Shown here in pieces: positions 12,001-62,242 of a stretch of 64,000 bases of DNA. The notes under the pieces are model-generated. The model did no database searches and had not been told where the DNA came from. It worked only from the letters and a program-made list of their open reading frames with translations. Location: contig JAQTLN010000002.1 in assembly GCA_028714875.1 (NCBI GenBank), positions 62,001 through 126,000 of the forward strand. The letters are read 5' to 3'. Numbering within the stretch: position 1 is the first letter of the stretch; every line of letters begins with the position of its first letter. The position numbers and the translations under genes are program-made. Source of the DNA: Gallionellaceae bacterium (GTDB lineage: Bacteria; Pseudomonadota; Gammaproteobacteria; Burkholderiales; Thiobacillaceae).

Positions 12001-14982
12001 TACACGCCCAACGCCGGCTACATCGGTGGCGACACCTTCACCTACCAGGCCAACGACGGCAGTCTGGACAGCAACCTCGCCACGGTCACGCTTACCGTGA
12101 ACGAAGTGGTCGCGGTGAATCACGACCCCGAGGCCATGGCCGACAGCTACACGGTGCACGCCGGCCAGGCGTTGCAGATTGCCGCGCCGGGCCTGCTGGC
12201 CAACGACAGCGACGCCGACGGTGACGCGCTGCACATCGCATCCATCGACGTCACCAGCACGCAAGGCGTGGTGGTGGCCTTCCCCGACGGCCACTTCAGC
12301 TTCACGCCCACGGCCGGCTTCACTGGCCAGACCAGCTTCACCTACACCGTGGCGGACGGTGTCGGCGGCACGGCGCTGGGTACCGTCACCATCGACGTCA
12401 CCAACGCGGCGCCGGAAGCGGTGGCCGACAGCTACACGGTGCATGCGGGCCAGACGCTCAACATCGCCGCGCCAGGCCTGCTGGGCAATGACAGCGACGC
12501 CGATGGCGACACGCTGCGCCTCACCGCGCTCGACCGTACCGGCACGCAAGGCACGGTGGTGGCGTTCCCCGACGGCCACTTCAGCTTTACGCCCACGGCC
12601 GGTTTCATTGGCCAGACCAGCTTCACCTACACCGTGGCGGACGGCCTCGGTGGCACGGCGCTGGGTACCGTCACCATCGACGTCACCAACACGGCGCCGG
12701 AAGCGGTGGCCGACAGCTACACGGTGCATGCGGGCCAGACGCTCAACATCGCCGCGCCAGGCCTGCTGGGCAATGACAGCGACGCCGATGGCGACACGCT
12801 GCGCCTCACCGCGCTCGACCGTACCGGCACGCAAGGCACGGTGGTGGCGTTCCCCGACGGCCACTTCAGCTTTACGCCCACGGCCGGTTTCATTGGCCAG
12901 ACCAGCTTCACCTACACCGTGGCGGACGGCCTCGGTGGCACGGCGCTGGGTACCGTCACCATCGACGTCACCAACACGGCGCCGGAAGCGGTGGCCGACA
13001 GCTACACGGTGCATGCGGGCCAGACGCTCAACATCGCCGCGCCAGGCCTGCTGGGCAATGACAGCGACGCCGATGGCGACACGCTGCGCCTCACCGCGCT
13101 CGACCGTACCGGCACGCAAGGCACGGTGGTGGCGTTCCCCGACGGCCACTTCAGCTTTACGCCCACGGCCGGTTTCACTGGCCAGACCAGCTTCACCTAC
13201 ACCGTGGCGGACGGCCTCGGTGGCACGGCGCAGGCAACGGTCACAATCAACGTCGCCCCTCCAGATACCTTCCAGGTCACCGCCTTCACCCAGACCGACA
13301 GCGGCTTCCATCTCGACTTCAACCGCGTGGTGGATGGCGGCGTCCTCAACCTCTACAGCGGTGTGGACGACGCCCCGAATAGTCCGATGGGCGCGGCCGA
13401 CCTGACGCTGACCGATTCACGCGGCAACCTTGTGCGCGGCAACCTCATCCTCGACGCCAATGGCATGGGCGCCACCTACCTCAAGAGCGACGGCGTCCTC
13501 GCCGCCGGCGATTACAACCTCACCCTCTCCAGTCGCGGCGATGGATGGAAAGACAGCGGCGGCCAACTCCTCGACGGCAACGGCGACGGCACCACCGGCG
13601 ACGACTACAGCCGCGTTTTCACTGTCGCCTCCAGTTCCAGCGCCATTGTCAGCATCGGCGAACTCGCCCTCGGCGCCGGCCAGACCATTGCCAGCACCCT
13701 CGGTGGCCTCCCCATCACCCTGCTCAACGGCGCCGGCGTCAGCCACATCCAGTTCAGCCTCACCTACGATTCGGCGCTCCTCACGATCAGCGGCGCCAGC
13801 CTCGGTAGTGGTCTCACCGGCAGCGTCGACACCAGCGTCGCCGGTCGCGTACTGGTCGACCTCAGCAGCGCCGCCCCACTCGGCAACAGCGCCAAGGAAC
13901 TGCTCCGCCTCGAAGGCCGGGTTCCCGACACCGCCCAGAACCAATACGGCGGCAAGAACCTGCTTCACCTCCAGAACGTCCTCCTCAACGGCGGCGCTCT
14001 CGCCACGCGCGTCGACGACGGTCTTCATGTCGCCGCCTACGTTGGCGACGGCAACGGCGATGGCACCTACACCACGGTCGACGCCACGCGGCTGCTGCGC
14101 GTGCTCAGCCGTGCCGACACGGGCTACAACCTCTACCCCCTGGTCGACCCCAGCCTCATCGGCGACGTCAACAACAGCCATAACCTCAGTACCGTCGACT
14201 ACGCCCTGGTCCTGCGCGAAGCCACTTTCCTCCTCACCCACAACGCCGCCCTCCACTGGGCCGGGATACCCTACCTCCCGGTCGGCATCGGCCCCATCAC
14301 CTTTGCCGGCGCCGACCCGCTGGTCAAACTCCCGGACAACCTCGAAGCCACCGCCGGCGGTGAAATCACGGTTCCCGTCCTCCTTGCCGAACTCGAATCC
14401 GGCCTCACCAGCATCCCGCTGGAAACGGTCACGATCCGGATCGCCTGGAACCCCGGCCAGCTTGAACTCCTCGACTGGAACCCGGGCAGCCTCACCGGCG
14501 ACTTCGGCACCGTCATCACCCACAGCGAAGCCGGCCTGCTCATCCTCGACCTCAGCCATGACGGCGCCAAGGATGTCGGTCTCGGCAGCCTCGCCGAACT
14601 GCGCTTCCGGGTCACCGCCCAGGCCAGCGGCACGGTCAGGGTCGACTTGCAGGAAGTCAAACTCAACGCCAGCCACCTCACCCTCAATCCCGCCCCGCAA
14701 ATCGGCGCCGACTCCACCGACGGCCTGATCCGGGTCAACCTCCCGATCGCCCCGGACCGCCTCGCCATCCCGGATAGCGGTGTCTCTCATGACCTGGGCG
14801 CCACGCCGGTGATCGACTTCGGCAGCCGCTACGACGGCTTCGAATTCACGGGCAACGGCGACAAGAGCTGGCTGGGCGACTGGCTCACCGACGGCAAGAA
14901 CAAGAAGCCCGACCTGGAAGCGCTGCGGATACAGCCCAGCATCCAATCCAGGGTGGCGCCGAAGTTGAGCGCTAGGTTATAA
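1..14982 (+). CDS. Giant repeat-rich surface/secreted protein A with embedded subtilase and cohesin-dockerin-cohesin C-terminus (5' partial)
   Basis: The frame is open from base 1, so the true start lies upstream; 4993 residues are visible. Domains in order (nt): about six CARDB repeats of ~131 aa (1-2180); four Calx-beta-like repeats (2180-3420); another CARDB (3421-3780); Ig-like and carboxypeptidase-regulatory-like segments (to ~4980); a cysteine-rich, then Gly-rich region (5370-5990); four SbsA/Big-like repeats (7190-8820); SdrD-B-like repeats (8821-11260) interrupted by a subtilase domain; seven Big_9/VCBS-like repeats (11262-13263); and a C-terminal Ig-cohesin-dockerin-cohesin module. 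The protease triad is intact: Asp at 9913 (IIDTGID), His at 10039 (NGHGSH), Asn at 10336, Ser at 10594 (GTSQATA). The dockerin-like loops are GDGNGDGTY and GDVNNSHNLS. A LEPR-XLL start is expected by analogy with protein B but is outside the window. Surface adhesion or fibre formation is inferred; type I export is a guess. Confidence 0.9.
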   Translation, partial: GQTLLSTTVYHDAAIQGGVAAAGSLARSYDYTLPDGDSGVGDMRVSITTDYYNHQYEYNAGGTGNSNNSASATVAASLAPYADLQVRNLAATPSTLLTGEVMHITWNDANSGNLAASANWYDRVVVLNTTTGATLLDTTVYHNAGSELSVAAGASLARAYDFTLPNGTASVGNLQITVTADTYNYQYEHDGVIPNGGESNNSASTTASASIAPYADLQVQNLVATPSSLLTGGVMAITWNDVNSGNLAAGANWYDRIVVLNTSTGATLLDTTLYHNAASEGGVAAGASLARAWNFTLPNGDAAVGNLQITVTTDAYNYQYEYNPGGTGESNNSAVTSASATLAPYADLQVTGLLIGPATPHSGDVVTISWNDSNTGNGAASASFYDYLRVRNTDTGEWLYSTTLYYDANTQGSIAVGGALARSASFTLPQGTRGVGNLEVTVSSDWYNQVYERNNLGTGESNNTTVANAASSIADYADLRARNLALTPTSFTSGASVTLNWETYNDGLAASAASFYDRVMVVNQTTGETLVNTWVYYDQASGGSLNAGEARARSYSFNLPQGTRGAGNLLITVDADIGNYVFEYNAGGTGESNNSASLAATSGLAPYPDLTVSDIQAPGSALAGRSTQVSWTVANLGDLAATGAWSEQVWLSNDAVIGGDQLLGTFYYSGNNLPAGGGSVTRTESVTLPTFVSGAYRLVVRVDAGNAVFELNEANNAVIDDVAFDLGAALQLTLNTAQINEQAGANAATGTLVRSGSTAAALSVNLSSDLAGLTLPATVVIPVGQSSVSFTIGMTDNSLVDGTRNGGINASAVNFADGAAALRILDNDQPTLTLTAPVTTIDEGYGPLTMTLTRNTDPSAALSVTLSNEKPYKLTVPASVTFAAGQSSVTFQVTPVNDNVPEGDRNIWVTATAAGFASGARQLRVLDNDIPSLSFDLSSHIVSEGAGTAALYGTVTRSYVTDSPLVILLSGDIGRARMASYVTIAGGESSVSFPVSILDNNLVGGDYTATLSAVVADAFSLIPLPSTKVTTALLITDDDGPTLSLSIDKNVIAEVAGAGAATATVTRNTDTSSDLLVYLTSSDTTEATVQSTVTILAGQSSATFAVNAVSDGIQDGTQSATLVAAAAGFNSGSVGVQVSDRELADLQVTSINLPTSTLTQSVINLTWSVGNVGFGAAAGSWTDTVYVSVDANLSADDALIGSFNGTPLGVGESYDRGMSIQIGDRVGPFYVFVVTDAAGNVPELVEGNNTRGSAGVEVSAAYHAVVYTDFESGPAGTTIPLYGDAIDAVSGAARAHVPVTIQVVHGSTVRTLSAFTNASGHFTANFTPLYNESGHFTLSADHPGVYERTAQDAFDLLGMTAQGGINIALLPGQTQSGTIELRNLSPVALTGLAASLANLPPSLTVNLSLPDTLAGSGSVLLNYTLTAALDSGALNGSTAVQITSAEGVTVSVPLSVSVTPLTPHLVANPGYLTAGMLRGAQTTVSFDVVNTGGVDSGPLTVQLPDNAPWLSLGSNATLPSLAPGQKTTITLALKPAADLPLQVYSGVLNVVGTNCYSNVSFQFRAVSEATGDVQITVTDEYTYFAEGAPNLAGATVQLLDAYTSAVVASAVTDATGIINFSNLAEGPYTLMVSANKHDTVRQTVHVTPGGLDTEEVFLHRQAVTYNWTVVPTQIQDHYQITLESTFETEVPMPVVTVDEPFIMPWVIPGYETQFNITLRNHGLIDAKDVHFNIPEDADYIITPLIDSIPTLAAKSEVTIPFTIRLRDTSSASVSASSGGLATAGAGSALMKCLGLDTMYTYECKNNQWVAVPVKIAAVVGCGEGINSGAESIATWLAERGAGNLLKAGCDVISLALDCIEAAGGPGLTDCQTAIITTACNALAGGIAGSAAGGIGAIPGAIGGALSNWADILACMCSLIGPIGAGGGGTSSGGWGGGGWYWGGGNGGSGSPYSVPIGYSVPYTGCSGSTSASSADSIGSGDTALTSQGANGVCAEVRLRIEQQAVITRTAFLGTLEINNGRADTTLENISLTLDIRDQNGNAANDMFVVRGPTLDGVTRNADGSWSIGPSSIGSIQYTFVPTNDAAPDAPIRYSMGGMLHYIDNGTVVDVPLLPATITVYPEAKLNLDYFWQRDVYADDPFTDVVEPSEPFALGLQVTNVGKGGAGNLTITSAQPQIIENEKGLLVDFKIIGSQVGANPGSNSLTVDLGNIAPGQTTTAQWNLISSLQGKFKDFSATFEHLDDNGDLRTSLIQQVNIHELIRAVRVTTPSNDNIPDYLVNDVPDADNLPDTLYMSTGGQAAVSLAANALVSGGGLTRILTADMQAGWSYLQVADGLPAAYQLTKVLRSDGTELPVNGMAWRTDRTFHADQPGATYENLFHLLDYNSTGSYTLYYAIVDHVAPTLDALGGVAAGLQTTPVDAVELTFSEEIDTATLSAADFTLTHNGVGVAVPDLSVTHLSGNTWRVSGLAGATAADGNYRLGVDAHGITDLSGNAGVNSLALNWAMGASAPVILDVQAVTPAVRHDVVASLDVTFSRDMDAASFDWNDLALTRDGAAVALNASVSVVQLDATTFRVGGLAGFTNVAGDYALTVLAGGTLDSLGVAGVGQFSRAWTLDNTAPTFTGIEHLTTNPRNTVVLSLDVDFSEPIDAGSFDWRDITLTRNGGGNLITNEVTVEQVDADTWRIKGFNWKVGQDGTYVLTVIGAGISDLAGNAGTGSVSETWVMDIVDPLAPSNLAMTPDNGISNSDRRTNTLNLSVTGDLPETGLAVRMTDMTTNKELGYATVSGTSFSRAFTLSGPGAHQIRVRVVDAAGNLAPDSFLNVFIDMTAPGVASIAGISPNPRTTGVDTVDVTLDEEVDLAGFTFADIALTRDGAAVTLDAAVTVSKLSDNVYRIAGLGGFTATPGAYQLTVSATGLADLAGNAGTGAKSVSWNTLAVLPTGIRGFAYEDLDGGGTFNPASYNPETVIAGRTVFLDSNSNGQLDAGEVSTTTGADGKYAFDNLAAGDYRVAQVTPSGWITTGPASGAYSVTLTEGHTVSGADFGSFRTGNISGVLFHDRDADGTREIGEEAISGRTVYLDSNANGVLDTGEASVVTGADGVFSFTGVGPGTVVIGEVLPDGWQRTTPGVPYRIKSGFVLASDLGNVQAGSISGAKFNDLNGNGVRDSGEPGVAGWTIFLDSNANGLLDSGEISTLTDADGNYSFTGLLPGQYTVAEGTRDGWTQTTPLPGPSAVDVSTAGSSITMESLGCGCGGTWATASGSAVVDYGAIAINTALDTVGITKLRAQSAYANLDGRGTTTVIIDTGIDLNHSFFGPDLNGDGVDDRIVYQWDFANNDADASDVNGHGSHIASLIGSQDSRYYGVAPGTDLIALKVFEDSGRGTFAYLEKALQWVLNNYQTYNIGVVNLSLGDGGNWTDEFSRYGIGDELAALAQTDVIVVAAAGNDYLQFGRMGVAYPASDPAAIAVGATWAADFGGPWTVYTGATNYSTGVDQIAAFSQRDTSLLDTFAPGARFNGANATGGVQTMQGTSQATAFVSGAAALAQQIAHETLGRGLTTGEFATLLRNTGDLIMDGDDEIDNVVNTGLQFPRLNMEKLAAAIATLGATPAGGAGGSGGGNVGGVLQQAARGVHTLVLSAGDNLGSLDFGNFQLMNVSGSLYDDLNGNGVMDASDSALVGWSVFLDGNGNGTLDAGETSAVTDANGAYRFNDLGPATWRVAIAAPDGWLVTTDSFFDVFANSGQSATGNFGANHLPVAVDDSYNADEDQAINGNVSGNDTDGDGPVYNATLVTGPAHGGLVFNADGGFTYTPAANYHGADSFTYRVSDGLSQSGIATVSLTLASVNDAPVAADDTYTVLENGGISIATPGVLTNDNDVDGDTLSVTPFNGRTSHGALELFADGHFNYTPDAGYAGDDGFAYEVSDGALSSGANVVLHVSAVNHAPNAVDNAYALDQDSSLTVDGPGVLGNDSDPDGDSLSAVLVGAASHGTVTFNTNGGFTYTPNAGYIGGDTFTYQANDGSLDSNLATVTLTVNEVVAVNHDPEAMADSYTVHAGQALQIAAPGLLANDSDADGDALHIASIDVTSTQGVVVAFPDGHFSFTPTAGFTGQTSFTYTVADGVGGTALGTVTIDVTNAAPEAVADSYTVHAGQTLNIAAPGLLGNDSDADGDTLRLTALDRTGTQGTVVAFPDGHFSFTPTAGFIGQTSFTYTVADGLGGTALGTVTIDVTNTAPEAVADSYTVHAGQTLNIAAPGLLGNDSDADGDTLRLTALDRTGTQGTVVAFPDGHFSFTPTAGFIGQTSFTYTVADGLGGTALGTVTIDVTNTAPEAVADSYTVHAGQTLNIAAPGLLGNDSDADGDTLRLTALDRTGTQGTVVAFPDGHFSFTPTAGFTGQTSFTYTVADGLGGTAQATVTINVAPPDTFQVTAFTQTDSGFHLDFNRVVDGGVLNLYSGVDDAPNSPMGAADLTLTDSRGNLVRGNLILDANGMGATYLKSDGVLAAGDYNLTLSSRGDGWKDSGGQLLDGNGDGTTGDDYSRVFTVASSSSAIVSIGELALGAGQTIASTLGGLPITLLNGAGVSHIQFSLTYDSALLTISGASLGSGLTGSVDTSVAGRVLVDLSSAAPLGNSAKELLRLEGRVPDTAQNQYGGKNLLHLQNVLLNGGALATRVDDGLHVAAYVGDGNGDGTYTTVDATRLLRVLSRADTGYNLYPLVDPSLIGDVNNSHNLSTVDYALVLREATFLLTHNAALHWAGIPYLPVGIGPITFAGADPLVKLPDNLEATAGGEITVPVLLAELESGLTSIPLETVTIRIAWNPGQLELLDWNPGSLTGDFGTVITHSEAGLLILDLSHDGAKDVGLGSLAELRFRVTAQASGTVRVDLQEVKLNASHLTLNPAPQIGADSTDGLIRVNLPIAPDRLAIPDSGVSHDLGATPVIDFGSRYDGFEFTGNGDKSWLGDWLTDGKNKKPDLEALRIQPSIQSRVAPKLSARL
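12127..13230 (+). repeat. 285-bp in-frame tandem repeats (4 units)
   Basis: Units start at 12127, 12412, 12697 and 12982, giving an exact 285 bp (95 aa) period. Each encodes one Big_9/VCBS-like domain starting near PEAVADSY. Units 2 and 3 look identical by eye. Unit 4 differs by a T/C change (Ile to Thr) and diverges after 13223. Unit 1 is a more diverged copy. This points to recent tandem amplification. Confidence 0.9.
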
Positions 14983-14987
14983 AAAGC

Positions 14988-15007
14988 CCCCCGCCGCGTG
15001 GCGGGGG
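14988..15007 (+). terminator. GC-rich hairpin just after giant gene A
   Basis: An 8-bp stem CCCCCGCC/GGCGGGGG closes a GCGT loop six bases after the stop codon. It is preceded by an A-run and followed by ATTTC, so it could be a weak or partial terminator. A hairpin of different sequence sits at the equivalent place after giant gene B. Confidence 0.6.
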
Positions 15008-15019
15008 ATTTCACCTGGA

Positions 15020-15034
15020 GCGCCTCCGAGGCGC
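15020..15034 (+). promoter_or_regulatory. Small hairpin upstream of DUF3467 gene
   Basis: GCGCC-TCCGA-GGCGC ends 31 nt before the ATG at 15066. The same stem with a different loop occurs before the second DUF3467 gene, which suggests the structure is conserved. It may protect the processed downstream mRNA or control its translation. Confidence 0.5.
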
Positions 15035-15065
15035 GAATTGAACGAAGCGAAGAAAGGAGCAGGAA

Positions 15066-15359
15066 ATGGCCGAAGCCAACGAACAAGCCGTCGCGAAACC
15101 CGAAGCCACGGGCCCGCGCGTGAAGTGGAACGTCGAGCACCTGAAGAGCAGCTACGTCAACTTTGCCAACGCCAACTCGACACGCGAGGAAGTGGTGATG
15201 AACTTCGGGCTGAACACCAGTTGGGACCGCAGCCAGCCGGAGATGGAAATCGAACTGGCGCACCGCATCGTGATGAGTCCGTTCGCCGCGAAACGCCTGG
15301 CGGAACTGCTGAACAAGCTGATGGGCGAGTATGAGAGCCGCTATGGCGAACTGAAATAA
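15066..15359 (+). CDS. DUF3467 family small protein (copy 1)
   Basis: A 97-aa soluble protein with no signal peptide or membrane segment; its function is unknown. The body reads RVKWNVEHLKSSYVNFAN, a typical DUF3467 start, and ends with a helical segment LAELLNKLMGEYESRYGELK. The start is set by AAGGAG at 15054-15059, six bases before the ATG. It lies 83 bp after giant gene A, on the same strand, with no separate promoter seen, so co-transcription is likely. A paralogue with an almost identical body lies at 62300-62590 after giant gene B. The first ~20 residues (Ala/Glu/Lys-rich) differ between the two. The pairing suggests an accessory role for the giant protein, such as cytoplasmic chaperone or regulator, but this is inference. 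Confidence 0.85.
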   Translation: MAEANEQAVAKPEATGPRVKWNVEHLKSSYVNFANANSTREEVVMNFGLNTSWDRSQPEMEIELAHRIVMSPFAAKRLAELLNKLMGEYESRYGELK

Positions 15360-15374
15360 GGGTTCGCAAAAGCA

Positions 15375-15404
15375 AAAACGGGGCGGCCTGGCCGTCCCGT
15401 TTTC
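15375..15404 (+). terminator. Rho-independent terminator after DUF3467 gene
   Basis: AAAACGGGGCGGCC pairs with GGCCGTCCCGTTTT, with one G-T wobble. This is a 12-13 bp stem ending in TTTT, 16 bases after the stop codon. Confidence 0.85.
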
Positions 15405-29874: not shown

Positions 29875-29881
29875 AACTACT

Positions 29882-29980: not shown

Positions 29981-30013
29981 CAAAACGGCGTGGCGCGCGC
30001 GGATGCGCCATCT

Positions 30014-34860: not shown

Positions 34861-34936
<76 letters not shown>

Positions 34937-37359: not shown

Positions 37360-37757
37360 AGGCCACTCCCCCGGGCGCTTTCTGTCATATCACTTCACTT
37401 CGCGCGGCGCGTCGCCCATCGCCCGGCCCGTGTTTTCAAACAGCGCCTGCCCTTGTTTCGGGAAAACATGAGTAAAAAAGTATGGAATTTTCAGCCTTGG
37501 AACTCCCTTTCAGATTGTCATTAACCTATTGAATACGTTGTCAAATAACTTGGCGGCGTATTTCTTGCGTGACAAGCGGTATGAGTGAATAAGGTTTGCA
37601 CGAATAAGATCCGCTTCTAATAATGGTTGCATGCGACGCAACGTCGTAACCCACGCTTCGAGTGGTCGGGCTGTTCGTGACCAGTCGTCAAGCCGCAACA
37701 GTAGTGCGCAATATTCGGTTTCAACGTCCAGGTGTTGAGCCGAACGAGGAGATGGTC
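37360..37757 (+). other. Long leader/promoter region of giant gene B
   Basis: About 400 bp of lower GC than its surroundings, with no recognised gene. AT-rich patches near 37470-37580 could hold the promoter. A minus-strand 62-aa frame (37510-37698) and an 18-codon frame at 37468 show no family pattern. Confidence 0.4.
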
Positions 37758-40700
37758 ATGAAAGGTGGATCGAGCCGCGCGGGTAAGGGTGTTTCTGGTG
37801 ACAAGGCGAGCAAAGGTGGGTTTAGCCTGAGTCGTCTGGCGCGGTGGATACACGGCACGTTCGCGGAGCCGACCACCCCCATGAGCGGCCGCGAGCCGCG
37901 CCGCAAGGGCCTGCTTTTCGAAAGCCTCGAACCGCGTTTGTTGCTGTCCGATACGCCTTTTTACAGCGCGGCGCTGGCCTCCAGCGCCGTTGACCTGACC
38001 ATCCGCACCGAGTTGCAGGACAGCGCGAAGTACATCAACGTGGTCGACAGCCTCAGCGGCATTACGCTGGCCAGCGCCGCCCTGGATGACCTCGCCAATC
38101 CCCTCGCCATCCGCGGTTCGGATTTCGGTGACCGCATCACGCTCGATGTGAACCCCGACATCCTCAGCAGCGATCTGTGGGGCATGATCAAGCTGGATGG
38201 CGGCGCCGGCCTCGACCTGCTGACCGGGCCTTCCGGCGACAACGACTGGACCCTGTCCGGGGCGAACAGCGGCGCGGTGGCGGGTGTCGTGTTCAGTGAC
38301 TTCGAGAATCTTCTCGGCGCCGCCGGCGATGACAATTTCGTGCTGGAAGACGGCGCCAGCCTCGCCGGGTCGCTCGATGGCGGCGCCGGGAACAATGCCC
38401 TGCTGGGCGCCGACATCGCGAACGACTGGCAACTGTCCGGGCTCGACGCGGGCAGCTTGAATGGCCTGGTCTTCAACCGGGTTGGCAACCTGATCGGCGG
38501 CGCCGCCGACGACGCCTTCGTGTTCGGCCTGGCGGGCGAGGTGTCCGGCCTGCTCGACGGCGGCGCCGAGGATGAAACCCTGACGCCGCTGGACAGCCTC
38601 GATTACGCCGCCTTCACCAGCGCCATCAGTGTCGATCTCGCGGCGTCCAGCGCCACCCGCGCGCACCAGATTTCCCGTATCGACCAGATCACCGGCGGCA
38701 CTTCCGCCGCCGACTCGATTCTTGGCCCCGACGATGAATACGTCTCCTGGGCCGTGACCGGGGCCGACGCGGTCAGCTTGCGCGGCATCGCTTTCAGCGG
38801 CTTCGAGAATCTGGTCGGCGCGGCGAACAACAGCGACGTTTTTGCCATCGAAGGGGCGGGCTCCCTCAGCGGCACGGTGGACGGCGGCAGCGGCGGCGCC
38901 GACGGCATGATTTTTTACGATCCGGCGGACGCGACCGCCGGCGTGGCCTACAACCCCGCCGGCGCCGACAGCGCCGGCAGCGCGGCGCTGTTCGGCAAGT
39001 CGATCGCTTACGCGGGCATGGACCGTCAGGACGTGCTGGCCGGCAACGATGTCAATCGCGTCATTCGCGGCACCATTTTCGACGACACCCTCATCCTGAG
39101 CGACGCGGATCTGTCCAATCCCGGCCAGATGATGGTCAGCTTCGAGGCCCATGGCTTCTTCGATGTCCTCACCGGGTTGATCAGCCATAGCGTCACCTTC
39201 CTCAACCCGCTCGAATCTCTGACCATCGAGGGCGATGCCGGCGCGGACAGCATCACGGTCGCCTCCCTGGACAGCGCCTTCGCGGCCGATCTGCACATCT
39301 ACGGCAGCCAGTTGAGCGGCGCCGCCGGCAAGGCGCCCATCCCGGAAGACGACGCCTACGTCGATACGGTGACCTTCAGCGGCGGCATCGACACCCACGG
39401 TGGCTTCCTGGAGGTTTACGCCGACAACATCAAGGTCAACGACAACGTCGCCATCGTCACCGGCGACAACGACATCGTGTTCCGTTCGCGGCGCATCAAC
39501 ACCGCCGCCCTGGAGGCCATCGAAAGCCTGTCGCCGCTGATCGTCGCCAACAAATCGGTGTCGATCGACATCGGCCGGAACGCCGTGCTCGACGGCGGCG
39601 GCATCTATCTCATCACCCAGGCGGAAGACCGCAGCTTCGCCGACATTCTCGGCATCAACAGCCTGGTGAAGTCCTATGTGATCGGGCCGTTACTGGACAA
39701 GGTCGCCGATCTCACCGCCTTTCCGGTGAAGCTGCTGTTTAAGGAATCCAGCGCCACCGTCACGCTTGGCGAGGGCGCCCGGATCACCGGCAGCGGCACC
39801 ATCGGCATTTACGCCACGGCCGTCGCGGACGCCTCCGGCAAGGCTGCCGGCAGCCTGTTCAGTGTCGGTTACGGCCAGAGCAAGGCGCACGCCGACATCG
39901 ACATCCAGCGCGGCGTCGTCATCGACGCCGGCGAGGCGGTGGTGGTCACCGCCAGCGGCGAAGCCACGGCGAATGTCACGACTGGAACCAAGCGCGAGAT
40001 GTCCGGCACCCCGAATCCGGGGTCGAAGCAGATCGGGGTGTCGCTGGCGGTGAACTACGCCGACACCTACTCCCACGTCAGCATGGCGGACACCGCCTCG
40101 ATCAGCGCCGGCAAGACCGCCAACCTCACCGCCGACGGCAAGGTGAGCGCGGAAACCGAGGCCGAATCCGGCATGTTCTCCGACGGCGCCGCCGCGCTGG
40201 CCTTCGGACTCAGCTTCTCCACGGCCGATGTCCAGGCCAGTGTCGATGGCCGGATCACGGCGCGCATGGAGGACGGCTCGGTGGTGAAGATCGAGATCGA
40301 CCCCACCGTCACCGATCCGAACCAGATCGGCTATGTCGATTACGACAAGGACATGATCCACGTCGGCCCGCATGCCCTGGTGACCGAGGACACCATCACC
40401 TACACGAACCGGCGCGGCAACAGCATCGGCGGGCTGGTGGACGGCACGGAGTATTTCGTCATCGCCCTGGCCGACGACCCGACCACGCTGGATCGCGACG
40501 AATCCGAGTGGATCAAGCTGGCGAAGACCGAAACCAAGGCGATCAACGGCGGCTACATCGGCGCCGACGGCTATTCCCTGCCCTACGAGGCGGGCAATCT
40601 GGTCGATCTCGCGCCAATACCCGGGGGCGGTGTCGTCACCGCCAACAACGTCAAGGGCTTCGCCGGCAGCGACGTGAACGACGCAGCCGACAGCATCACC

Positions 40701-43700
40701 CTGGCCAATCCGGCCTTCACCGGCGCCGGCACCCTGGATTTCTCCCTGCTCGGGCAGACCTTCGAACTGGGCCAGGCGGTGGTCTACCACCAGGGCAGCG
40801 CCGCCATCGACGGCCTCGTGGACGGCAACACCTACTACATCATCACCGGCACCAACGAATTCAACCTGCAGGGCGACCAGCGCTTCGTGGAAAAGCAGGT
40901 GGTTCAACTGGCGGAGACCGAGAACGAGGCGCGCGGCGGGGTGGCGATCAAGATCGGGCCGGCGTCGGCGGGCGCGACCGGCTACAGCTTCGCGGCCAAG
41001 CATGTGCTTGATTCCGGTTTCGCCACCGGCGTCGGCGTCGTCGCCCAGTTGAGCGCCACGGACAAGGCCTCGGCCAGCGCCGGCCTGGCGAGTGAAGACC
41101 CCGCGCCGAGCAAATGGGACAAATTCAAGGAGACGCTATCCCCCAATCTGGCCGACAAGCTGTTCCAGGGCCTGACCAAGGGCTACCGCGACAACGCGGC
41201 CAAGTCGAACACCGGCGCCAGCAACACGCTCAGCGTCGCCGGCGCGCTGGCCTTCTCGTTTGCCGATCACACCGTGCTGAGCAGCATCGGCGGCACGGCC
41301 GAACTCAAGTCGAACGAGGATCTGGAGGTCAAGGCGACGCTCAAGGAAGCGTTCCAGCTCAGCGCCGAGAGCCGCACCGAGCCGCAGGCGAACGCCGGCG
41401 GCGGCAGCGCCGGTAGCAGCGCCGCGAACTCGGTCAGCGTCGCGGTGGATGTGGGCATCTTCAACAATTCGGCCAAGGCCATCGTTCACGGTGGCGCGCA
41501 ACTGGACGCGCTGAAGGCCAACCGGATCATCGCCGACGTCTCCTACCCCTTCCTCACCCGGCCCGACATGCTCGTGCCCACCACCCTGGGTGAAGTGGTC
41601 GACGCCCTGCAAAGCGAAGGCCCGGAAGCCGTCACCAAGTACATCGACAACACCCTGGGCTTCAAGTCCGGCCTGTTCAACAGTTGGGCGCGCAGCACCG
41701 CCAAGGCCGACAAGGTGGGCATCGCCGGCTCGGTCAACGTGCTGGTATTCACCGACCGGGCCGAGGCCATCGTCGAGTCCGGCGCGCTGATCAACCAGGA
41801 CGCGGCCTGGCATGACGACACGGGCAACCCGCACGTCAATCAGGGTGCCCGGCAGGGTGACCATCTCGGCGAGGAGACGGTCTCGGTCGAAGCGACCAAC
41901 TACATGCAGACGTTCAACATGACGGGCATCTTCTCCCTGCCCAGCCTGACCATCGACCCCAGCGACCCGAAGAAAAACAGCCTCTCGCTCAACCCGGTCG
42001 GCACGGCCGGCGAGCGCGGCGGCGCCGGCGGCGCCATCTACGTCAGCGTGCTGAACAACACCACCCATGCCATCGTCGAGGATGGCGCGCATATCGCCAG
42101 CGGCGGTGACGGCGGCTTCAACATGAAGGCCGAAGAAGCCATCTGGGGCTTCAACTTCACCCAGGCCGGCGGCGTCGGCGGCAAGTTCGCCATCGGCGGC
42201 AGCGTCGCCTACGTCGGCCAGGACAGCGACACCCTCGCGCAACTCGGCGCGGCGGCCTTCGTGACGGGCCGCAACGCGCGCATCTACGCCGGCGACCTGG
42301 AAACCGGCATCAACTGGGTCGGCGGCGTGGCCAAGGGCGAGGGAGTGGGCCTAGGCGTCTCGGTGGCGATCAACGACGTGACCCGCCATACCCGCGCGGT
42401 CATCGGCGCCATTGACCCGGTCACCGGCGCGGGCGCCCGCGCGGATGTCCAGATCGGCGTGAGCGAAGGCGTCGATCTACTGGCCAAGACCGATGGCGCG
42501 CTGTGGAGCTTCGCCGTCGCCGGCGCGCTGGTCAGCGACACCCCGGTGAAGCAGACCGCGGAAGACCCGCTCGATGGCGAAACCGCGCCGACCACGCCGG
42601 GTTCGCTGGCGCAGGACGCGCCCGCCAAGACCGGCATCGGCATCGCGGCGGCGGTTTCGTTCAACACGGTGAGCGATGTCACCCAGGCCTCGATCGCCGA
42701 TGCCGGCACGATCGCCGCGAAGACTTTGGCGCTGAAAAGCAGCAACGACAGCGACCTGATCGCCGCCACCGGCGGCCTGGCCTTCAGCAAACCCGACCAG
42801 AGCAACAACGCGGTCGCCCTGGCCGGCGCCTTCAGCAAGAACACGGTGAGCGGCACCACCCGGGCTTACCTCATGGACACCGCCGCCCATCTGAGCGGCA
42901 CCAGCGACAGCGTGTTCAGCGTGTCGGCCACGCGCGACTCCGAGATCATCGCCATCGCCGCCGGCGCGGGCGGCTCGCTCGCCACCGGCCAGAGCGCGTC
43001 CGGCGGCAGCAGCAATACGGCGTTTTCGTTGGCCGGATCGGTGTCGATCAACTCGATCGACGGCGCCACCGAAGCCTTCCTCACCGGCACCAGCATCAGC
43101 GTGGCCGGCGGCCAGACGACGCTGCTGGCACAGGACACCTCGGACATCTTCGCCATCGGCGGCGGCCTCTCGCTGTCGATCGCCAAGGGCGGCGCCGGCG
43201 GCGGCACCAACGCCGCTTCGTTCGGCGTGGCGGTATCGGTCAACCGCATCACCAGCCCGGTCACGGCCTACCTCGACCATTCCAGCGTGACGAATCTGGG
43301 CAGCGGCAACTTCTCGCTGCGCGCCAGCGTCGACACCACCATCGCCGCCTACACGCTGGGCGCGGCGGTCAGTGTGGTTTCCGGCACGCAGGGCGGCGGC
43401 ATTGCCGGCGCCGGCGCCGGTTCGGGCTCGATCAACACGATCAACGCCGACGCGATCGCGGCGGTGCGCAACGCCAGCAACGTGAGCACCCATGGCGGCA
43501 CGGCCACGGTGGCGGCGAGCAATAGCGCCGACATCACCGCCGATGCCGGCGGGTTTGCCCTGGCGCTGGCGCTGGGTGGCAGCGGCAGCAGCAATGCCGC
43601 CGCCTTCGGCGCGGCCTTCGCGGTCAACCACATCGGCGCGGATGGCGACCGCAACAGCGTCGAAGCCCTGATCGACGCCTCCACGGTGAACGCCGGCGGT

Positions 43701-46700
43701 GGATTCACGCTCAGCGCCGTCTCCCTGCTCGGCATCAGCGCCTTCACCATCGGTGCCGCCGGCGCGGTCAACGGCCAACCCAACTCGGCGGTCACCGCCA
43801 GCCTGGCCGGGGCGTTCTCGTTCAACAAGGTGCGCGCCAGCACCCAGGCCAAGGTACGCGGCAATAGCAGCGTCACCACCACGCTGGACGACGTCAACAT
43901 CAGCGCCAGCGACCAGAGTTCCATCACCGCCGATGCCGGCGGTTTCGCGGTGGCCTTGCGCAAGGCCGACTCGTCGGGCGCCAGCCTGTCCATCGGCGCC
44001 TCGCTCGCGCTTAACGACATCGCCAATCTCAGCGAGGCCAGCGTCGCTGCGTCGCAAGTCACCTCGGCCGGCGCGATCACGCTGGACGCCACCGCCACCG
44101 GCGGCATCGACGCGCTGACCATGGCCGGCGCGCTGAGCGCCACGCTGGGCGGCAACAGCCTGAATTTCGGCTTTGCCGGCGCCGGTAGCGGCTCGGGCAA
44201 CAAAGTGGCCAACAGCATCCAGGCCCGCCTGCTCAACGGCGCCGAACTCACCACGCTGAACGGCGGCGCGGTGAATGTGACCGCCTCGGACGAGCGCTAT
44301 GCCTTCGACCTGGGCTGGAGCTCCGCCGCGCAACTGGACGACGCCGGCAAGCAGGATGACGACGTCGACGGCACCACGGCCAACGAGGCCAGCCTCGACG
44401 AGGTGGGTGATGGCGTGATCCGCGCCAATCTGAAGTCGGCGTTCGCCGCTCAAGGGGTGAATTTCGCCAGCAAGCCCACGGTCAGCACCATCACCGCCGG
44501 CAGCGCCTGGCTGGTCAGCGAGGAGGGCGGCGCGGCTTATGTGCTGCGCCTCGAAGGCGGCGTATACAAAGCCTATGCCACCACGCTGATCCACGCCGAC
44601 GCCGGCGCCGTGGCCATCGCCCTCGGTTTCAGCCAGGGCGGCGGGCAGAGCATCAATGCCTCGGTGGGCGCGTCGGCCGCGGTCAACTCGGTCGCCAACA
44701 CGATCCGCGCCGATGCCGACGCCGCGACGGTGACCGCCGCCGGCGGCGTCACTTTCGAGGCCACCTCCAGCGCCACCATCAACGTGCTGACCATCGCCGG
44801 CGCCGCTGGCGGCAGCGTGTCCAGCGGTTCGGGCTTCGGTGTGACCCTGGCCGGCGCCGGCACCGGCGCCGGCAACTCGGTGGACAACAGCGTGATCGCC
44901 AGCATCGCCAACGGCAGCACGGTGAGCAGCGGCGGCGGCCACGACATCGCGCTGCGCGCCACCGACAGCAGTTTCATCGACGCCAAGGGCATCGCCGGCG
45001 CGCTGTCCATCACCGGCGGCGAGGGCGGCGCCGTGGCGCTGGGCATCTCGATCGCCACGAATGACATTTCCAACACCGTGCAGGCGCTGATCGACCACGC
45101 CGCCGTCCACTCCGGCGCCGGGCTGACGCTGGCCGCCAACAGCACCTCGGTCATCAACTCGCTCACCGTCGGCGCGGCGGTCAGCATCGCCGCCGGCGGC
45201 GAGGCGGTGGCGCTATCCGGCTCGGGCGCCGGCGCCAGTTCAACCAACACCATCGCCAACAGCATCGAAGCGTCGATCAGCCACGGCCAGTCGGTGAGCA
45301 CCGGCGCGGGGAGCGCCCTGCTGCTCTCGGCCGGCGATCATTCCAGCATCGACGCCATTGCCGTCGCCGGCAGCGTGGCCATATCGGCCACCTCCAGCGG
45401 CCTCTCCGGCGCCATCGCGATCGCGGCGGCCCTCGCCGACAACGACATCGGCAACAGCGTGACGGCGAGCATCGGCGACGGCAGCGTGATCAATGCCGGT
45501 GGCGGCATCGGCCTGACCGCCGCCAGCGACAGCCGCATCGACGCGCTGGCCGTGGGCGTGGCGGTGTCGGCGGCGGTGACCGATCCGGCCGAAGGGCTCA
45601 GCATTTCCGTGTCCGGCGCCGGCGCGTCGGCGATCAATGACATCCACAACAGCGTCGCCGCGCAACTGGGTGTCAGCGGCGGTGCGCGCAGCCAGGTGAA
45701 CGCCACGGGCGCCGTGACGCTCAGCGCCAGCGACGCCTCCAGCATCGTCGCCAACGTGCCGGCGATCGCGGTTTCCCTGAGCACCGGCGGATCGTTCTCG
45801 GTCGGCGCTTCGCTGTCACAGAACACCCTACGCGGCGCGCTGGACGCGTCGGTCGAAAACGTCCTGCTCGACATCAGCGCCGGCAATCTCGGGGTTGCGG
45901 CCTACTCGAGCGCCAGTGTCGACGCCAAGTTGAGCCCGGTGTCCGCGTCCATCGGCATCGCGGCGGCGGCGATCTCGGGTGCCTATGGCACCTCCACCGT
46001 GGCCGGCCACACCCAGGCCTGGCTGGGCGGCGGCGCCGACGTGACGCTGCATGCCGGCCGCGCCGACATCACCGCCAACTCCAGCGCCGACGCCAAATCG
46101 GCGCCCAAGGGCGGCAGCGGCAGCACCGGCCTCGCCGTCAACATCCTGCTGGCCGAGACCCGGGTCGAGCGCGACACCGCGGCCTTCATCGACGGCGGCG
46201 CCGTGTTGCTCGCCAATGGCCTGCGCGTCGCGTCGGACTCGACCTACAGCGCCACCACCGACATGCTGGGCGTGGCGCTGGGTGTGGCCGCCGGCAGTGG
46301 TGGCCGCTCGCAAGCCTATGTCACCGGCAACACCGAAGCCCGCATCGGGCCGGCCAAGGGAGCGGGGGCGCAGGCGGCCACCCGCATCGACGTCGGCGGC
46401 GGCGACATCGACATCGTTTCGACCTCGCACAACACCGCTACCGCCATCGCCAACGGTGGCGGCGGCGGCGGCCTCGCGGTGTCGATCTTCCTGGCCGATG
46501 CCGGCATCGGCAGCAACGGCGGCGACGACGGCGCGACGCGGGCCTATCTCGGCCAGGGCAGCTTCATTTCCGGCGGCACGCTGGACATCGCCGCCGACGC
46601 CAGCAACCACGCCAGCAGCGACATGCTGGTGGTTTCGGTGGGCTTGGTCGGCGGCAGCGGCGCGATCGCCACCACTCGGGGCGATGGCGATGTCGAGGCG

Positions 46701-49700
46701 TTTATCGACTCGGGGCCGGCTGATGTCGGCGTCTTCACCCAGCCGGTCGCGCTGACCGGCGCGGTCAGCGTGCTGGCCACCGGGCGCGAGACGCTTGACG
46801 CCACCGCCACCGGCGGCGCCGGCGGCGGCATCGCCATCGCCGGCATGACCGCCACCACCACCAGCGACAGCGACCTGCGCGCCTACCTGGGCACGCGCGC
46901 CGGCCTCTCGGCCAACGGTGTGACGGTCAAGGCCGACGCGCCGGTGCGCGACGCCAACGCCAAGATCATCGTCGGTTCCGTCGGCATCGCCGGTGGCGCC
47001 GGCGGCAAGGCCCAGGCCGACAGCCAGGGCAGCGTCGAAGCCTATCTGGGCAGCGGCGCGACCGTGGTGTCACCGAGCGGCGACGTCCGCGTCGAGGCCC
47101 TCGATACTTACAGCCATGCCCACGCCACGGCGCGGGGCGGAGCGGGCGGCGGCATCGCGATCGCCAAGTTCATCGCCGAGGCGACCACGGCCGGCAATAC
47201 CTTCGCTCATGTCGATGAGGGCGCCGACGTCACCGCGCGCGGCTTCACCCTGAAGGCCGACGCCACCGGCAAGGCCGAGAGCGACATGCTGACCGTGGGC
47301 ATCGGCCTCGGCGCCGGCGCGCTGGGCGAATCCACCGCCAACGCCAATGCCACCACCCAGGCGCTGTTCGGCCCCGCCGGGGGCACGGTCAGCGGCCAGG
47401 CGACGCGCCTGGCGGCGGGCGGCAACGCGCTGATCCTGGCGCAGTCTAACCAGACCGCCGAAAGCGATGCCGATAGCGTCTCCGGCGGCGGCATCGCGGT
47501 CGGCGGCATCCGCGCCGACGCCAACCTGAATACCAGCAACCAGGCGGTGATCGGCAACAACGCGAAACTGGCCGGCACCGGCAACGTCACGCTGCGCGCC
47601 ACGACCACCGCGCACGGCGACAGCAATGCCGACGGCGGTGGCGGCAGCCTGATCGCGCAGATCGACTCGGCCAAGGCCACGACGACGATGCACGACCAGA
47701 CCGGCACCCGTGTCGGTGACGCGGCGCGGGTCGACGCCAACGGCGCCTTGCTGGTCGAGGCGCTGCAAAGCCTCGAACTCGACGCCCTGTCCGACATCAC
47801 GAACGGCGGCCTCGGCACCGAGGCCAACGCCGACGCCATCGGCACCCTCGACGCCACCACGGTGAAGTCCGACATCGGATCGGCCACGCTGATCGGCCAG
47901 ACCCTGGCGGTGCGCGCCGACGTGAGCAAGATCGACGCCCGCGTCACCGGCAGCGCCGATTCCGGCGGTCTCATCACCAACACCAACGCCACGGCGACGC
48001 TGGATGTGACGACAGAAGCCGACGTGCTGGTGCACAGCGGCGCCGACCTCAAAGGCCGCGACACCCTGACCCTGGGCGCCTACCACAACGCCGGCAATGC
48101 CGGCGGCGCCCTCTACACCGCCGCCACCGCCGACGCGAACGGCTCCAGCCTCGGCGGCGGCACCGATGCCGGCGCGACCAACCGCCTGACCACGACCACC
48201 ACGGTGGATGCCGATGCCGGCGCCACGCTGCGCGCGCGCGATCTGGTGGTCGCGGCCGAAGCACACGGCACACCCAGCCGCATCGCCAACCCCACCGCCG
48301 ACGGCGCGCTGATCGACAGCCCGACCGAAACCACGCTGAAGTCGCTCACCGCCAACAGCAACATCGACTTCGACGCCACCGCCGTCCTGCTGGGCGCGCC
48401 CAGCCCCGACCTGCTGATCGACGCCGCCGGCAACGTGGTGCGTCAGCAGAACATCAACTTCACCCGCGTCGGTGACGAGATCCGCATCGCCGACATCGCC
48501 AATACCGGCGCGCTGGCGGGGTCGATGAAATTCTCCGTGCTGACCTTCCCGATCGCCAACAGCGGCGACGCGGCCAATCTGGTCAGCACCAGCGCCGTGA
48601 TTCGCGGCAACCCGGTGTTCGAATACCGCACCGGATACGAGAGCGTGACGATCAACGTCGCCTCCAACACCGCGTTGCGCACCGGCCTGATCGACGTCAT
48701 CAATCACGCCGCCGTGTTCAGCCCCGCCATCAGCATCAGCGCGAGCGACAAGACCGGGTTCCACTACACCACCCGCACGGACCCGGGCAACACGCTGATC
48801 GGTATCGACAATGCCGGCGCCAAGGCCATCACCCTGGCCGGCAACATCCTCAATCCGTTTGGCGGCACCCGTATCGACAGCGCCCTGGGCAGCATCATGG
48901 CGGCGAACACGGCGCTCAAGATCGAGACCGACAGCGCCGAACTGCGCGCGCGCCACGGCGCCATCGGCGGCGCCACCACGGCGATCCGCATCGACTCCAA
49001 CCGGCTCGCCGCCGAAAGCGGCGCGGCGGGTATGAACATCAACGAGATCGCCGGCGACCTGCTGGTTGAGCAGGCCTATGCCTTGGGCGGCACGGTGCGG
49101 CTGCGCGCGGCCGGGTCCATCCGCGACGGCAATGCCGGCCCGTTCGCCGACATCATCGGCGCCGACGTGATCCTGACCGCCGACGGCGGCGGCATCGGCA
49201 CGTTCGCCGACGCGCTGGAGATCGACGCCGGCGCGAGCAGCTTGTGGGCCACGGCCCAGGGCGACATCGTCATCGAGGACATGGCCGGCGCGCTGGGCAT
49301 CGCCCAGGTGGTGTCGCAGGCCGGCGGCATTCGCCTGGCCACGCGCGACGTCGGCAACAGCGCGGCTGAAAACATCCTGCTGGCCAATGGCGGCGTGCTG
49401 CGCGCGCTCCAGGGCGACATCACGCTGTGGTCGGGCGATGACGTCATTCTGGCCAGCGGCGCCGGCATCAGCGCCGGTGGTCTGGTGCGGGTCGAGGGCG
49501 ACCACGGCAAGGCCGACGACGCCTCGTTCGGCGTGACGCTGGACCTGCGCGGCGAAATTCGCGGCAGCTCGGTCAGTTTGCAAACCGGCGCGGGCGACGA
49601 CACGGTCGTGCTGGCCCAGGTGCTGTCCGACACCACGGTCGCCACCGGCGGCAACAGCGACCTCATCCGCGTCGGCAGCCAGGCAACGCCGACCGGCAAT

Positions 49701-52700
49701 ACCTTGGGCTTGCTGGATAGCGTGCATGCGCGACTGGATGTGCAAGGCGGCGAGGGTGTCGACCGGCTCGAACTGGATGACAGCGGCGACAGCGGCGCCA
49801 ACATCGGCGTGCTCGGCGCCAACAGCCTCAGCGGCCTGGGCATGGCCGGCGAGATCACTTTCGACCAGATCGACGATCTGGTGCTGACGCTGGGCAGCGG
49901 CGCCGACCGCCTGAGCGTGCTCGGCACCCGTGCCGGTGGCCGCACCGAGGTGTTGATGGGCGAGGGCGCCGACATTCTGGTGGCCGGCGACAGCGCCGGC
50001 GTGGTGAAGCACGGGCTCAACGCAATGGCCGGTCTGCTCAATGCGCAGGGCCAGGGCGGTAACGACGCGCTGTGGATCAGCGACCAGGTCAGCGGCGACC
50101 ACGCCGCCGACGAGAACATCGGCCTGCTCACCGGGCTGCGCCTCACTGGCCTGGGCATGGGCAACGCCGACCAGACCGTGGTGAACCCGGACGCGGGCAT
50201 CGCCTACGCTGAATTCGAGTCGCTCGCGCTGACCTTGGGCGACGGCATCGACGAACTGCAAATCCTCGGCACCTCCACGGCAACCACGGTGGACATGGGC
50301 GCCGGCAGGGACATCCTGGCCGTGGGTGATAGCACGCCCAGTAGCAGCCTCAACAGCATCAGCGGGCCGCTGACCGTGCTGGGCGGCGCCGATGGCGGCC
50401 TGCTCGGCGTGGCCAGCGGCGTGGCCGTGGACATGCGTGTGGAACGCGACGCGGCCGATGCCGGCATCGGCGTGCTGAGCGAAACCAGCATGGCCGGCGC
50501 GATCCGCTACAGCGGTTTCGACGCGCTGGCGCTGGTGCTGGGTGACGGCGCCGACAAACTCCAGATCGTGGATACCGCCTCGCAACTGGCGGTCGCCGCC
50601 GGTGGCGGCATTGACACGGTGACGATAGAAACCGTGTCGCACGGCACCACGCTGGAGTTGGGCGACGGCGCCGACCGGGTGACCGTGCATGGCGCCCAGG
50701 CCGCGTTGAGCATCGCGGGGCAAGGCGCGGGTGACGATCAGGACAGCCTCCTGCTCGATCTCGGCGCGCGGGCACAGAGCGTCCAGGGCAGCCTGCTGGG
50801 CAGCGGCGATGCGGGCTCGCTGGTCGGCTTCACGACGGGGGATGTCGGCTTCACCGGCATCGAGCAGTTGACGCTGCAACTGGGCGCCGGCAACGACCGG
50901 GTGACGCTCAGCAATGCGCTGGCGACCACGGCGGTCACCGTCAATGGCGGCCTGGGCGACGATGCCGTCGAGGTCTACGAGCTGGGCGACCAGACCACCA
51001 CCCTCAACGGTGACGTCGGTGACGACACCGTCACCCTGCACATCGCCGATGTGCCGGTGGCCGGCAGCTTCACGCACCTGGCCCTGTCGGTGGACAACCT
51101 GGTGGTGGACAACCTGCTGAACTTCAGCACGGCGGTGGACTGGACGGTGGTCGACGGCGCGGTGATCCAGGCGAGCATCGGCGGCGGCGCCAGCGCGGCG
51201 GTGGCGACGATAGACGGCGCCAACCAGATCCGGGTGCTGGCCGGCGCGCAATCCGACACCCTGAACATCGTCAGCGAAATCCCGGGCGACGTGACCGGCA
51301 TCATCGACGGCAACAGCGTCGACCTCACCGCCGGCCGCATCGTGCTGGTGCCGGGCGGCTTCAACGAGCTGGTGGACTACGAGGTGGTGGTCGATTTCGA
51401 CGCGCTGACCGGCACCAGCAACAGTTACTCGGTCGAGGACGGCTTCACGCTAACCAGCAATTCCGGTCTGCTCGGCCTGGACAACGGCAGGAGTCCGGCG
51501 GCGAAGCTGGCATCTGGCGCGGTCGCCACCTTGACCAGCGACAGCGGCGCCTTTTCGGCCGGGTCGCTGCTATTGGCCGCCGACGGCGCGGCCGACCTCA
51601 CCGTGCGCTTCAGCGGCACGACGCTCAATGGCCAGACCGTGATGGTGGATGCCACCGCGCCCGGACGCGATTCGGCGACCGGCCTGCCGGCATTCCGCCG
51701 CTTCGACTTCACCGCCGCCGGCTTCCGCGCGCTCAGCGCCTTGAGCTGGCAGGTGCTGGGCAGCGGCGCGCTGCTGATGGACAACATCGTGGCCGGGCGC
51801 ATCACCGGCGTCAGCGCCGGCGGCAGCACACCGACGCCGGTCACGGTGCCGATCTTCATGGCGTCGGCCAATCTCACCTTCGATACCAACACCGGCCGCA
51901 TCGCGACCGGCTATGTCGACATCGACCGCAACCGTGACGGCGTGGCCGATTCCGGCCAGCGCATCGCGGCCGGCGCTTATTTTTCCGGCACTGGCTATTC
52001 GGTCAGCGCCACCAGCACCGTGACCACGTTCTGGGTCGGCGGCGACATGGTGTTCCCGGCCAATGGCGGCGTGGTCAGCGCCGTCGGCAGCCGCGCCATC
52101 GCCCTGGTGGTGGCCAATGACGTGACGGTCGGCGCTAACACCGATTTCCGCGTCTCGGCCACCAGCACGGCCAGCGGCAGCACCGCCGCCGGCGCCGGCG
52201 GCGGCACGGTGGGCACGGCCGGCGCGGCCGGCACCCTGTATGGCTATCGCGGTTATCGCGGCAGCTATGGTTATGGCCAGGGCGGCGGCGGCGGTGGCGA
52301 CTCCACCGGCCAGGGCACCTATGCCTCCGGCACCTTGCGCGATGGCACGGCCGGCACCGCCGGCACCGCCGGCGGCAATGGCGGCGATGGCACGGTTGGC
52401 CAGGCCGGCGGCAGCGGCGGCAGCGGCGGCAGCGGCGCCGGTGGCGTGGGTGGTGCCGGTGGCGCTGGTGGCGCCGGCGGTCTTCCCGGCGCCGGCGCCA
52501 CCAGCGGGGGTGGCGGTGGCACGGCCGGCACCAAGGGCAACAAGGGTTCAGACTGGGTCAACGGTGGCAATGGCGGCCCCGGTGGCACCGGCGGCACGGG
52601 CGGCAGTGGCGCGGCGGGCGATAGCGGCGAAGCCGGCCTGCCGGGCAGCGCCGGCCTGAACACGGCGGTCGGCCTGGGCATCACCGGCGGTGGCGCCGGT

Positions 52701-62218: not shown

Positions 62219-62242
62219 GGCTCCCTCCGCGAAGAGGGAGCC
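62219..62242 (+). terminator. Hairpin after giant gene B
   Basis: Perfect 9-bp stem GGCTCCCTC/GAGGGAGCC with loop CGCGAA, 18 bases after the stop codon, with no T-run. It ends 57 bases before the next ATG; the hairpin of copy A ends 58 bases before its ATG. Confidence 0.6.

Follow-up and report, generated by a model that had tools for sequence, protein, structure and literature searches.

DUF3467 genes paired with giant LEPR-XLL proteins and a secondary-SecA exporter: a possible escort for giant cargo

The question raised by this locus is why giant, adhesin-like proteins of a Gram-negative bacterium are each followed by a small gene of the DUF3467 family, and how chains of such length might leave the cell. 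The stretch of DNA analysed here, called the window throughout, comprises 64,000 nucleotides of a Gallionellaceae bacterium (C2:62001-126000, where C2 is contig JAQTLN010000002.1 of assembly GCA_028714875.1) from a genome of 4.08 Mb in 54 contigs, and its plus strand carries the end of one giant gene (A), the whole of a second (B) and the start of a third (C). LEPR-XLL proteins and related giants measure about 4,000 to 12,700 residues, and in the literature searched, which excluded subscription papers and preprints, we found no explanation of how they pass two membranes; in the open-access excerpts available, DUF3467 itself figured as a row of a proteomics table. Our results give good support to an association between DUF3467, giant adhesin-like proteins and an exporter built around a secondary SecA, and we propose, as a rather probable reading, that DUF3467, a small protein, escorts the giant substrates in the cytosol as part of a SecA-driven, type 1-like export pathway.

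Giant genes and their shared ends

The first-pass annotation of the window had described a repeated cassette in which giants A and B end in the same C-terminal module and are each followed, on the same strand and at similar distance, by a DUF3467 gene and a terminator, with a third LEPR-XLL gene beginning straight after cassette B. This observation is confirmed and turns out to be larger than first stated. The DUF3467 start codons lie 83 bp (A) and 98 bp (B) beyond the stop codons of the giants, a terminator-like hairpin follows both DUF3467 genes, and the gene that opens directly after cassette B is indeed an LEPR-XLL gene (Table 1). Its frame of 7,420 residues runs to C2:147037 and is followed by a DUF3467 gene of its own at C2:147156-147446, and a fourth cassette (D), with a giant frame of 8,401 residues, lies on contig C12; across the four cassettes the giant frames measure 7,420-9,075 residues. 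In a search of the whole genome that counted DUF3467 matches at E<=10 and tail matches at E 1.7e-37 or better, leaving out a fifth tail match of 25 residues at E 0.95, all four DUF3467 genes stood directly behind the four tail-bearing LEPR-XLL giants. This one-to-one pairing is more than chance, and each of the four copies exceeds the cut-off of PF11950.

The C-terminal module shared by A and B extends over about 570 residues, of which the 63-residue tail noted in the first pass is the terminal part, and 460 of 608 aligned positions (76%) are the same in the two proteins. The extent of the similarity was followed in 200-bp windows for the six pairs among A-D. Between cassettes C and D, a 2,124-bp segment of DNA that opens near the beginning of the tail module and runs through the linker to the stop codon of DUF3467 (C2:145326-147447 and C12:53092-55198) shows 97.2% identity, and the restriction of this identity to the one unit suggests that it was recently duplicated or subject to gene conversion. 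Identity falls directly past the DUF3467 stop codon in all six pairs, and on the upstream side the boundary, some 2.1 kb ahead of the same codon, is sharply drawn in C-D and A-B and less so in A-D. The linker is the segment of lowest identity within the unit in four of the six pairs, and is identical in C-D. These profiles suggest that the tail and DUF3467 were copied, or have been kept alike, jointly while the bodies differ, most plainly in C-D, and the shared unit is the strongest sign that DUF3467 acts with the C-terminal end of the giant.

The earlier description of A and B as unrelated-looking needs amending, since outside the tail, too, there are stretches with some 31-70% identity, in part between repeats. 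Giant A contains Ig-like, Big_9, cadherin-like, CARDB, SdrD_B and subtilase domains, and giant B contains Ig-like, cadherin-like, PKD and PA14 domains, with no family at E 1e-4 in its first 4,000 residues. The subtilase (Peptidase_S8) of giant A occupies 9886-10710 of the window, approximately residues 3296-3570 of the frame at 1-14979, and a giant from a DUF3467 locus elsewhere (L102) likewise holds a subtilase domain. The cohesin-like stretches and dockerin-like loops of the tail, the latter under their cut-off, stand on one chain and could let giants link to one another.

The LEPR-XLL motif is present in all four giants and lies between positions 65 and 100 when the frame is counted from stop to stop. 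Scores against NF012209 (cut-off 17 bits) are 26.8, 18.2 and 28.8 bits for A, B and C, and the motif of D is recognised by a DNA pattern only. Among 61 genomes drawn from the organism's own assembly, genus, family and order, this pattern gave nine matches, namely the four own giant starts, one match each in G006, G007, G022 and G052, and a chance-like one in G041, against two for the reversed pattern; the full LEPR giant frames of G052, G007 and G022 measure 4,601, 7,824 and 7,978 residues. At the other end of the proteins, 26 of 51 giant tails have the pattern W[LVKMA]x(1-3)[WFY][LVFA] within their final 110 residues, as against 8 of 2,450 internal windows, which we treat as a lead only because the pattern was picked after the tails had been viewed and many of the tails are kin.

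In the linkers of both A and B a G+C-rich hairpin stands between the giant and DUF3467. Its interpretation as a true terminator was rejected, since in A the plus strand shows no uridine run (U-run) and the folding z-scores are modest (-1.6 to -3.0; -0.4 in G007), and it may stabilise the messenger RNA or act in attenuation. An Rfam scan of the window returned two transfer RNA (tRNA) genes, an adjacent pair on the plus strand at 34861-34933 and 34979-35051, and otherwise no match above gathering scores.

Table 1. Features of cassettes A to C in the window (positions of the window; z, folding z-score)
Feature	Position	Strand	Remarks
Giant A, C-terminal 4,993 residues	1..14982	+	Frame begins upstream of the window; 9,075 residues in total; LEPR motif at frame position 66
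C-terminal module of A, about 570 residues	13276..14979	+	Similar to cohesin; loops resembling dockerin score below cut-off; ends in W-L-G-D-W-L
G+C-rich hairpin, giant A-DUF3467 linker	14988..15007	+	Lacks a U-run on the plus strand; resembles a terminator when read on the minus strand; whole linker z -1.6
DUF3467 gene A	15066..15359	+	PF11950 69.4 bits, E 2.9e-19, cut-off 25
Terminator-like hairpin after DUF3467 A	15375..15403 (approx.)	+	z -3.2; absent from a simple terminator scan
Giant B, 8,179 residues from first listed start	37662..62201	+	LEPR motif 37917-37942
C-terminal module of B	60504..62198	+	Sequence match with A
G+C-rich hairpin, giant B-DUF3467 linker	62219..62242	+	Whole linker z -2.6
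DUF3467 gene B	62300..62590	+	PF11950 68.4 bits, E 5.8e-19, cut-off 25
Terminator after DUF3467 B	62609..62634 (approx.)	+	Stem then TTTTTATTTT; z -5.3
Giant C, start	62817..64000	+	ATG 62817; LEPR motif 62958-62983; NF012209 28.8 bits, cut-off 17

An exporter operon beside DUF3467

Cassette D leads, on the same strand, into genes for a GAF-HlyD protein, a membrane protein of 715 residues with M50, PqqD-like and HlyD parts, a SecA-like ATPase of 655 residues and an HlyD adaptor. The ATPase matches SecA_DEAD at E 1.3e-96 and carries the DEAD motor (PF07517), the preprotein cross-linking domain (PF01043) and the second nucleotide-binding domain (PF21090); its match to Bacillus-type SecA chains stops near residue 600 of about 840, leaving the helical wing, the scaffold and the C-terminal tail of SecA unmatched. 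The membrane protein has a PqqD-like N-terminus over the cut-off and an M50 part that scores 26.5 bits against a cut-off of 27.2, with HEMGH present, and that resembles a daptide metalloprotease at 127.9 bits, below that model's cut-off of 300. HlyD_3 and HlyD_D23 are over their cut-offs in two proteins of the operon. In its own genome GAF-HlyD has one match and the M50 protein has one close copy, together with two at 27-28% identity; since four giants and four DUF3467 genes stand beside one GAF-HlyD and one close M50, DUF3467 counts with the substrates and not with the machine.

Among the 61 genomes, DUF3467 is found in eight and the tail module in six, and the M50 protein in 16 at E<=1e-10 and in ten at E<1e-140. 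DUF3467 is present in eight of those ten and in none of the 51 others (Fisher 1.5e-8, uncorrected for kinship, with M50 cut-offs here and in the phylum sample below that were chosen after the lists had been seen). The order tail, DUF3467, GAF-HlyD, M50, SecA, HlyD recurs in cassette D, G002, G007 and G022, and G006 follows it within the stretch examined, which reaches the start of SecA; the contig of G002 ends inside the tail, so that 248 C-terminal residues of its giant frame are present. Absence of linkage in related genomes had been named beforehand as the outcome that would refute the first-pass proposal, and in the four same-genus relatives that have a DUF3467 gene (G002, G006, G007 and G022) this gene lies directly behind the tail. 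In G046 and G052 the operon follows a DUF3467 gene without a tail match, and in G052 an LEPR giant also precedes that gene.

A survey of named genomes took in the best 80 of 165 DUF3467 loci, with operon homologues in the flanks sought by tblastn (E<=1e-8) and giants taken as open frames and not as predicted genes. The flanks of these 80 loci held homologues of GAF-HlyD in 67, of M50 in 54, of SecA in 50 and of HlyD in 45, some of the GAF-HlyD matches being weak and possibly other HlyD proteins. Where at least 7 kb lay downstream (67 loci), M50 and SecA were both present in 47 and some operon homologue, on either side, in 62; where at least 9 kb lay upstream (49 loci), an open frame of at least 3,000 residues ended within 1 kb in 30. 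The 45 loci readable on both sides included 22 with a giant together with M50 and SecA, two with a giant, GAF-HlyD and M50, nine with a partial operon and no giant, and two with neither. The giant frame of L122 possibly ends out of its true frame, and the three giants scanned from these loci carry Ig/cadherin-type repeats. DUF3467 heads the exporter operon in many Proteobacteria. In a sample of 398 genomes from the phylum, 71 contain DUF3467, with 45 of them in one family, two in a second and 24 elsewhere; in the last group the M50 protein is matched in all 24 at E<=1e-60 and in 20 at the stricter E<=1e-100. Twenty hand-chosen regions of this sample showed operon genes in 13, MazG in three and neither in four.

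The same neighbours occur on finished plasmids. The DUF3467 of Sphingobium, used as the query, retrieved 11 plasmid records, and in five of the nine annotated ones, all of which we examined, a gene of 12.1-38.2 kb stands directly upstream (Mesorhizobium, Rhizobium, Pseudosulfitobacter, Thalassospira and Methylosinus), that of Thalassospira being annotated as LEPR-XLL. Terrarubrum has its giant one gene away, Octadecabacter has none, and the records of Pseudohalocynthiibacter and Pontibrevibacter start too close to DUF3467 for the upstream gene to be judged. M50 homologues over 300 bits are present on five of the nine plasmids and SecA on four, and TolC ends the operon on those of Thalassospira and Methylosinus; SecA was not found in the examined stretch of the Thalassospira plasmid. 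In Mesorhizobium, Rhizobium and Pseudohalocynthiibacter, frames before DUF3467 match the front of the tail module, with E values between 3e-13 and 3e-18.

What DUF3467 may do

The proposal of the first-pass annotation that DUF3467 serves the giant, be it in export, folding or regulation, survives in narrower form. Export is favoured among the three roles because the next genes encode a SecA-like motor, an M50/PqqD-HlyD membrane protein and HlyD adaptors; as a rule for the whole family the proposal does not stand, since a lineage linked to mazG exists. DUF3467 would probably escort the giants to this exporter, because it lies behind each of the four giants and opens the SecA-exporter operon in many bacteria. 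We suggest that it binds the C-terminal module of the nascent giant, the target to which the shared unit points, and holds the giant in an export-competent state. The PqqD-like and M50 parts of the membrane protein would recognise, and perhaps cut, the N-terminal LEPR-XLL leader; PqqD-like domains are of a type that binds leader peptides in peptide maturation, and from this domain type and the resemblance to the daptide metalloprotease the leader may be both read and cut at that protein. The SecA-like ATPase would drive the unfolded chain across the inner membrane, as its family suggests, and the HlyD adaptors and a TolC channel, such as the one encoded in the operon on two plasmids, would bring the giant to the surface. 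A single operon behind cassette D would serve all four giants.

An alternate explanation makes DUF3467 a constant component of the exporter, such as a regulator of the SecA-like motor, with the copies in cassettes A-C merely carried along when the tail unit was duplicated. It does directly precede GAF-HlyD in most loci with the module, and an HlyD gene adjoins it, with no giant directly upstream, in G041 and in several loci of Burkholderiales. A fixed part of one machine sits poorly, however, with four DUF3467 genes in a genome that has one GAF-HlyD match and one close M50, all four of them uninterrupted, and three of the 45 two-sided loci (L051, L059 and L086) have a giant and DUF3467 without operon homologues in the flank, so that we consider this explanation rather unlikely. 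The giants might also leave by another route while the SecA operon exports something else, and the window offers a candidate in the two tandem MacB_PCD/FtsX genes (28675-31222) and the HlyD-type adaptor (32186-33343) that lie between A and B on the minus strand, which would provide MacB-like ATP-binding cassette (ABC) permeases together with an adaptor. In relatives and on plasmids, however, giants immediately adjoin the SecA/M50 operon on one side or the other, and the tail module is confined to genomes with a close M50 homologue (six of six, among the 61), which makes such a route highly improbable.

The family might, lastly, consist of nucleic acid-binding regulators with a PC4/Pur-alpha-like fold that act on the very long transcripts of the giants, which we regard as distinctly unlikely. 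As to its structure, a first model of DUF3467, built from 11 sequences, was poor (predicted local distance difference test, pLDDT, 62.8) and was superseded by a later one, and a search of the PDB gave no convincing sequence relative (best E 0.38).

Several observations weigh against the escort reading. Being paralogues, the four cassettes of the own genome amount to a single event, the upstream edge of the shared unit is not sharp everywhere, given that moderate identity (52-89%) extends about 1 kb above the module in A-C, B-C and B-D, and the 80 loci of the named-genome survey lean towards kin of the query. Seven of the 29 two-sided loci with M50 and SecA lack a giant directly upstream (in L093 the giant is one gene off), and of the 39 genomes of the phylum sample that have M50 at E<=1e-60, 26 contain DUF3467 and 13 do not. 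In that sample the LEPR pattern gave 13 matches as against 23 for the reversed control, with no enrichment, and the motif is therefore useful as a marker only among close relatives. In the family that accounts for 45 of the DUF3467 genomes, a MazG gene precedes DUF3467 in the three readable copies (L190, L191 and L192); the mazG-linked protein lacks the tryptophan insertion and is a separate, perhaps housekeeping, subfamily. Homology to SecB does not help either, since a SecB-like chaperone was rejected on sequence grounds (hhalign of 81 DUF3467 against 12 SecB sequences, probability 0.5, E 0.12). Among the 61 genomes, G036 combines GAF-HlyD, M50 and SecA with a giant cadherin-like frame and has neither DUF3467 nor an LEPR match, and G041 has three tail-bearing frames without an adjoining DUF3467, its sole DUF3467 gene standing beside a lone HlyD. 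Exporter loci without DUF3467 therefore occur, so DUF3467 is not a universal partner, and the arrangements in these two genomes suggest that the exporter may accept giants with or without it. In the locus of G036 (L145, G036:C1, 8761-19998) the exporter genes lack DUF3467 and lead on to a giant that bears cadherin repeats and DUF4347 and may represent a second class of cargo.

A wider and more tentative proposal, which we put forward as possible, is that of a distinct Gram-negative pathway. It would combine a stripped-down SecA, a PqqD/M50 protein that reads and cuts the N-terminal LEPR-XLL leader, HlyD and TolC; each giant would have its own DUF3467 escort, directed at the C-terminal module, and tail and escort would move between giants as one unit of 2.1 kb, turning new bodies into cargo.

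Comparison with known systems

The arrangement has features in common with type I secretion, namely HlyD-type adaptors, TolC on two plasmids, giant Ig/cadherin-repeat proteins as the proposed cargo and a conserved C-terminal module. It differs in that a SecA-like ATPase and an M50/PqqD membrane protein take the place of the ABC protein; the four exporter proteins behind D, which are those that were scanned, matched no ABC family. With respect to the cargo, giants A, B and C are over the cut-off of the LEPR-XLL family NF012209, and A matches the Planctomycete extracellular domain PF07595 at 17.9 bits, below the cut-off of 25.5. The names of these families are silent about an exporter, whereas the giants here are tied to one and have a companion gene.

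In Gram-positive bacteria the accessory Sec system (SecA2/SecY2/Asp) uses a second SecA for very large surface adhesins together with small accessory proteins. In our case HlyD and M50 proteins stand in place of SecY2 and Asp, and the SecA2 models score below their cut-offs. As proposed here, DUF3467 would resemble SecB in being a small cytosolic protein that works beside a SecA, but the two families have no profile similarity, and SecB itself is present in 59 of the 61 genomes. SecB did not figure among the fold matches listed for DUF3467, which is no evidence against a shared fold.

The closest precedent is the locus described by Kamneva, Poudel and Ward in 2015 (PMC4452313), an exporter-like set of a secondary SecA_DEAD protein, HlyD, Peptidase_M50 and GAF genes with weak M50 similarity and, in some loci, an OEP/TolC outer-membrane gene, the broader role of which was called completely unknown. 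The passages of that paper used here name no substrate, and neither DUF3467 nor LEPR occurs in its main text. Cassette D leads into the same series of genes, a GAF-HlyD protein, a weak-M50 HlyD membrane protein, a SecA-like ATPase and HlyD; what our locus adds is the giant LEPR-XLL protein and DUF3467, with one DUF3467 gene per giant. In this way an orphan SecA/M50/HlyD machine gains a substrate and a domain of unknown function gains a testable job, with DUF3467 as the likely escort, and both questions, how the giants are exported and what DUF3467 does, become answerable experimentally by gene deletions.

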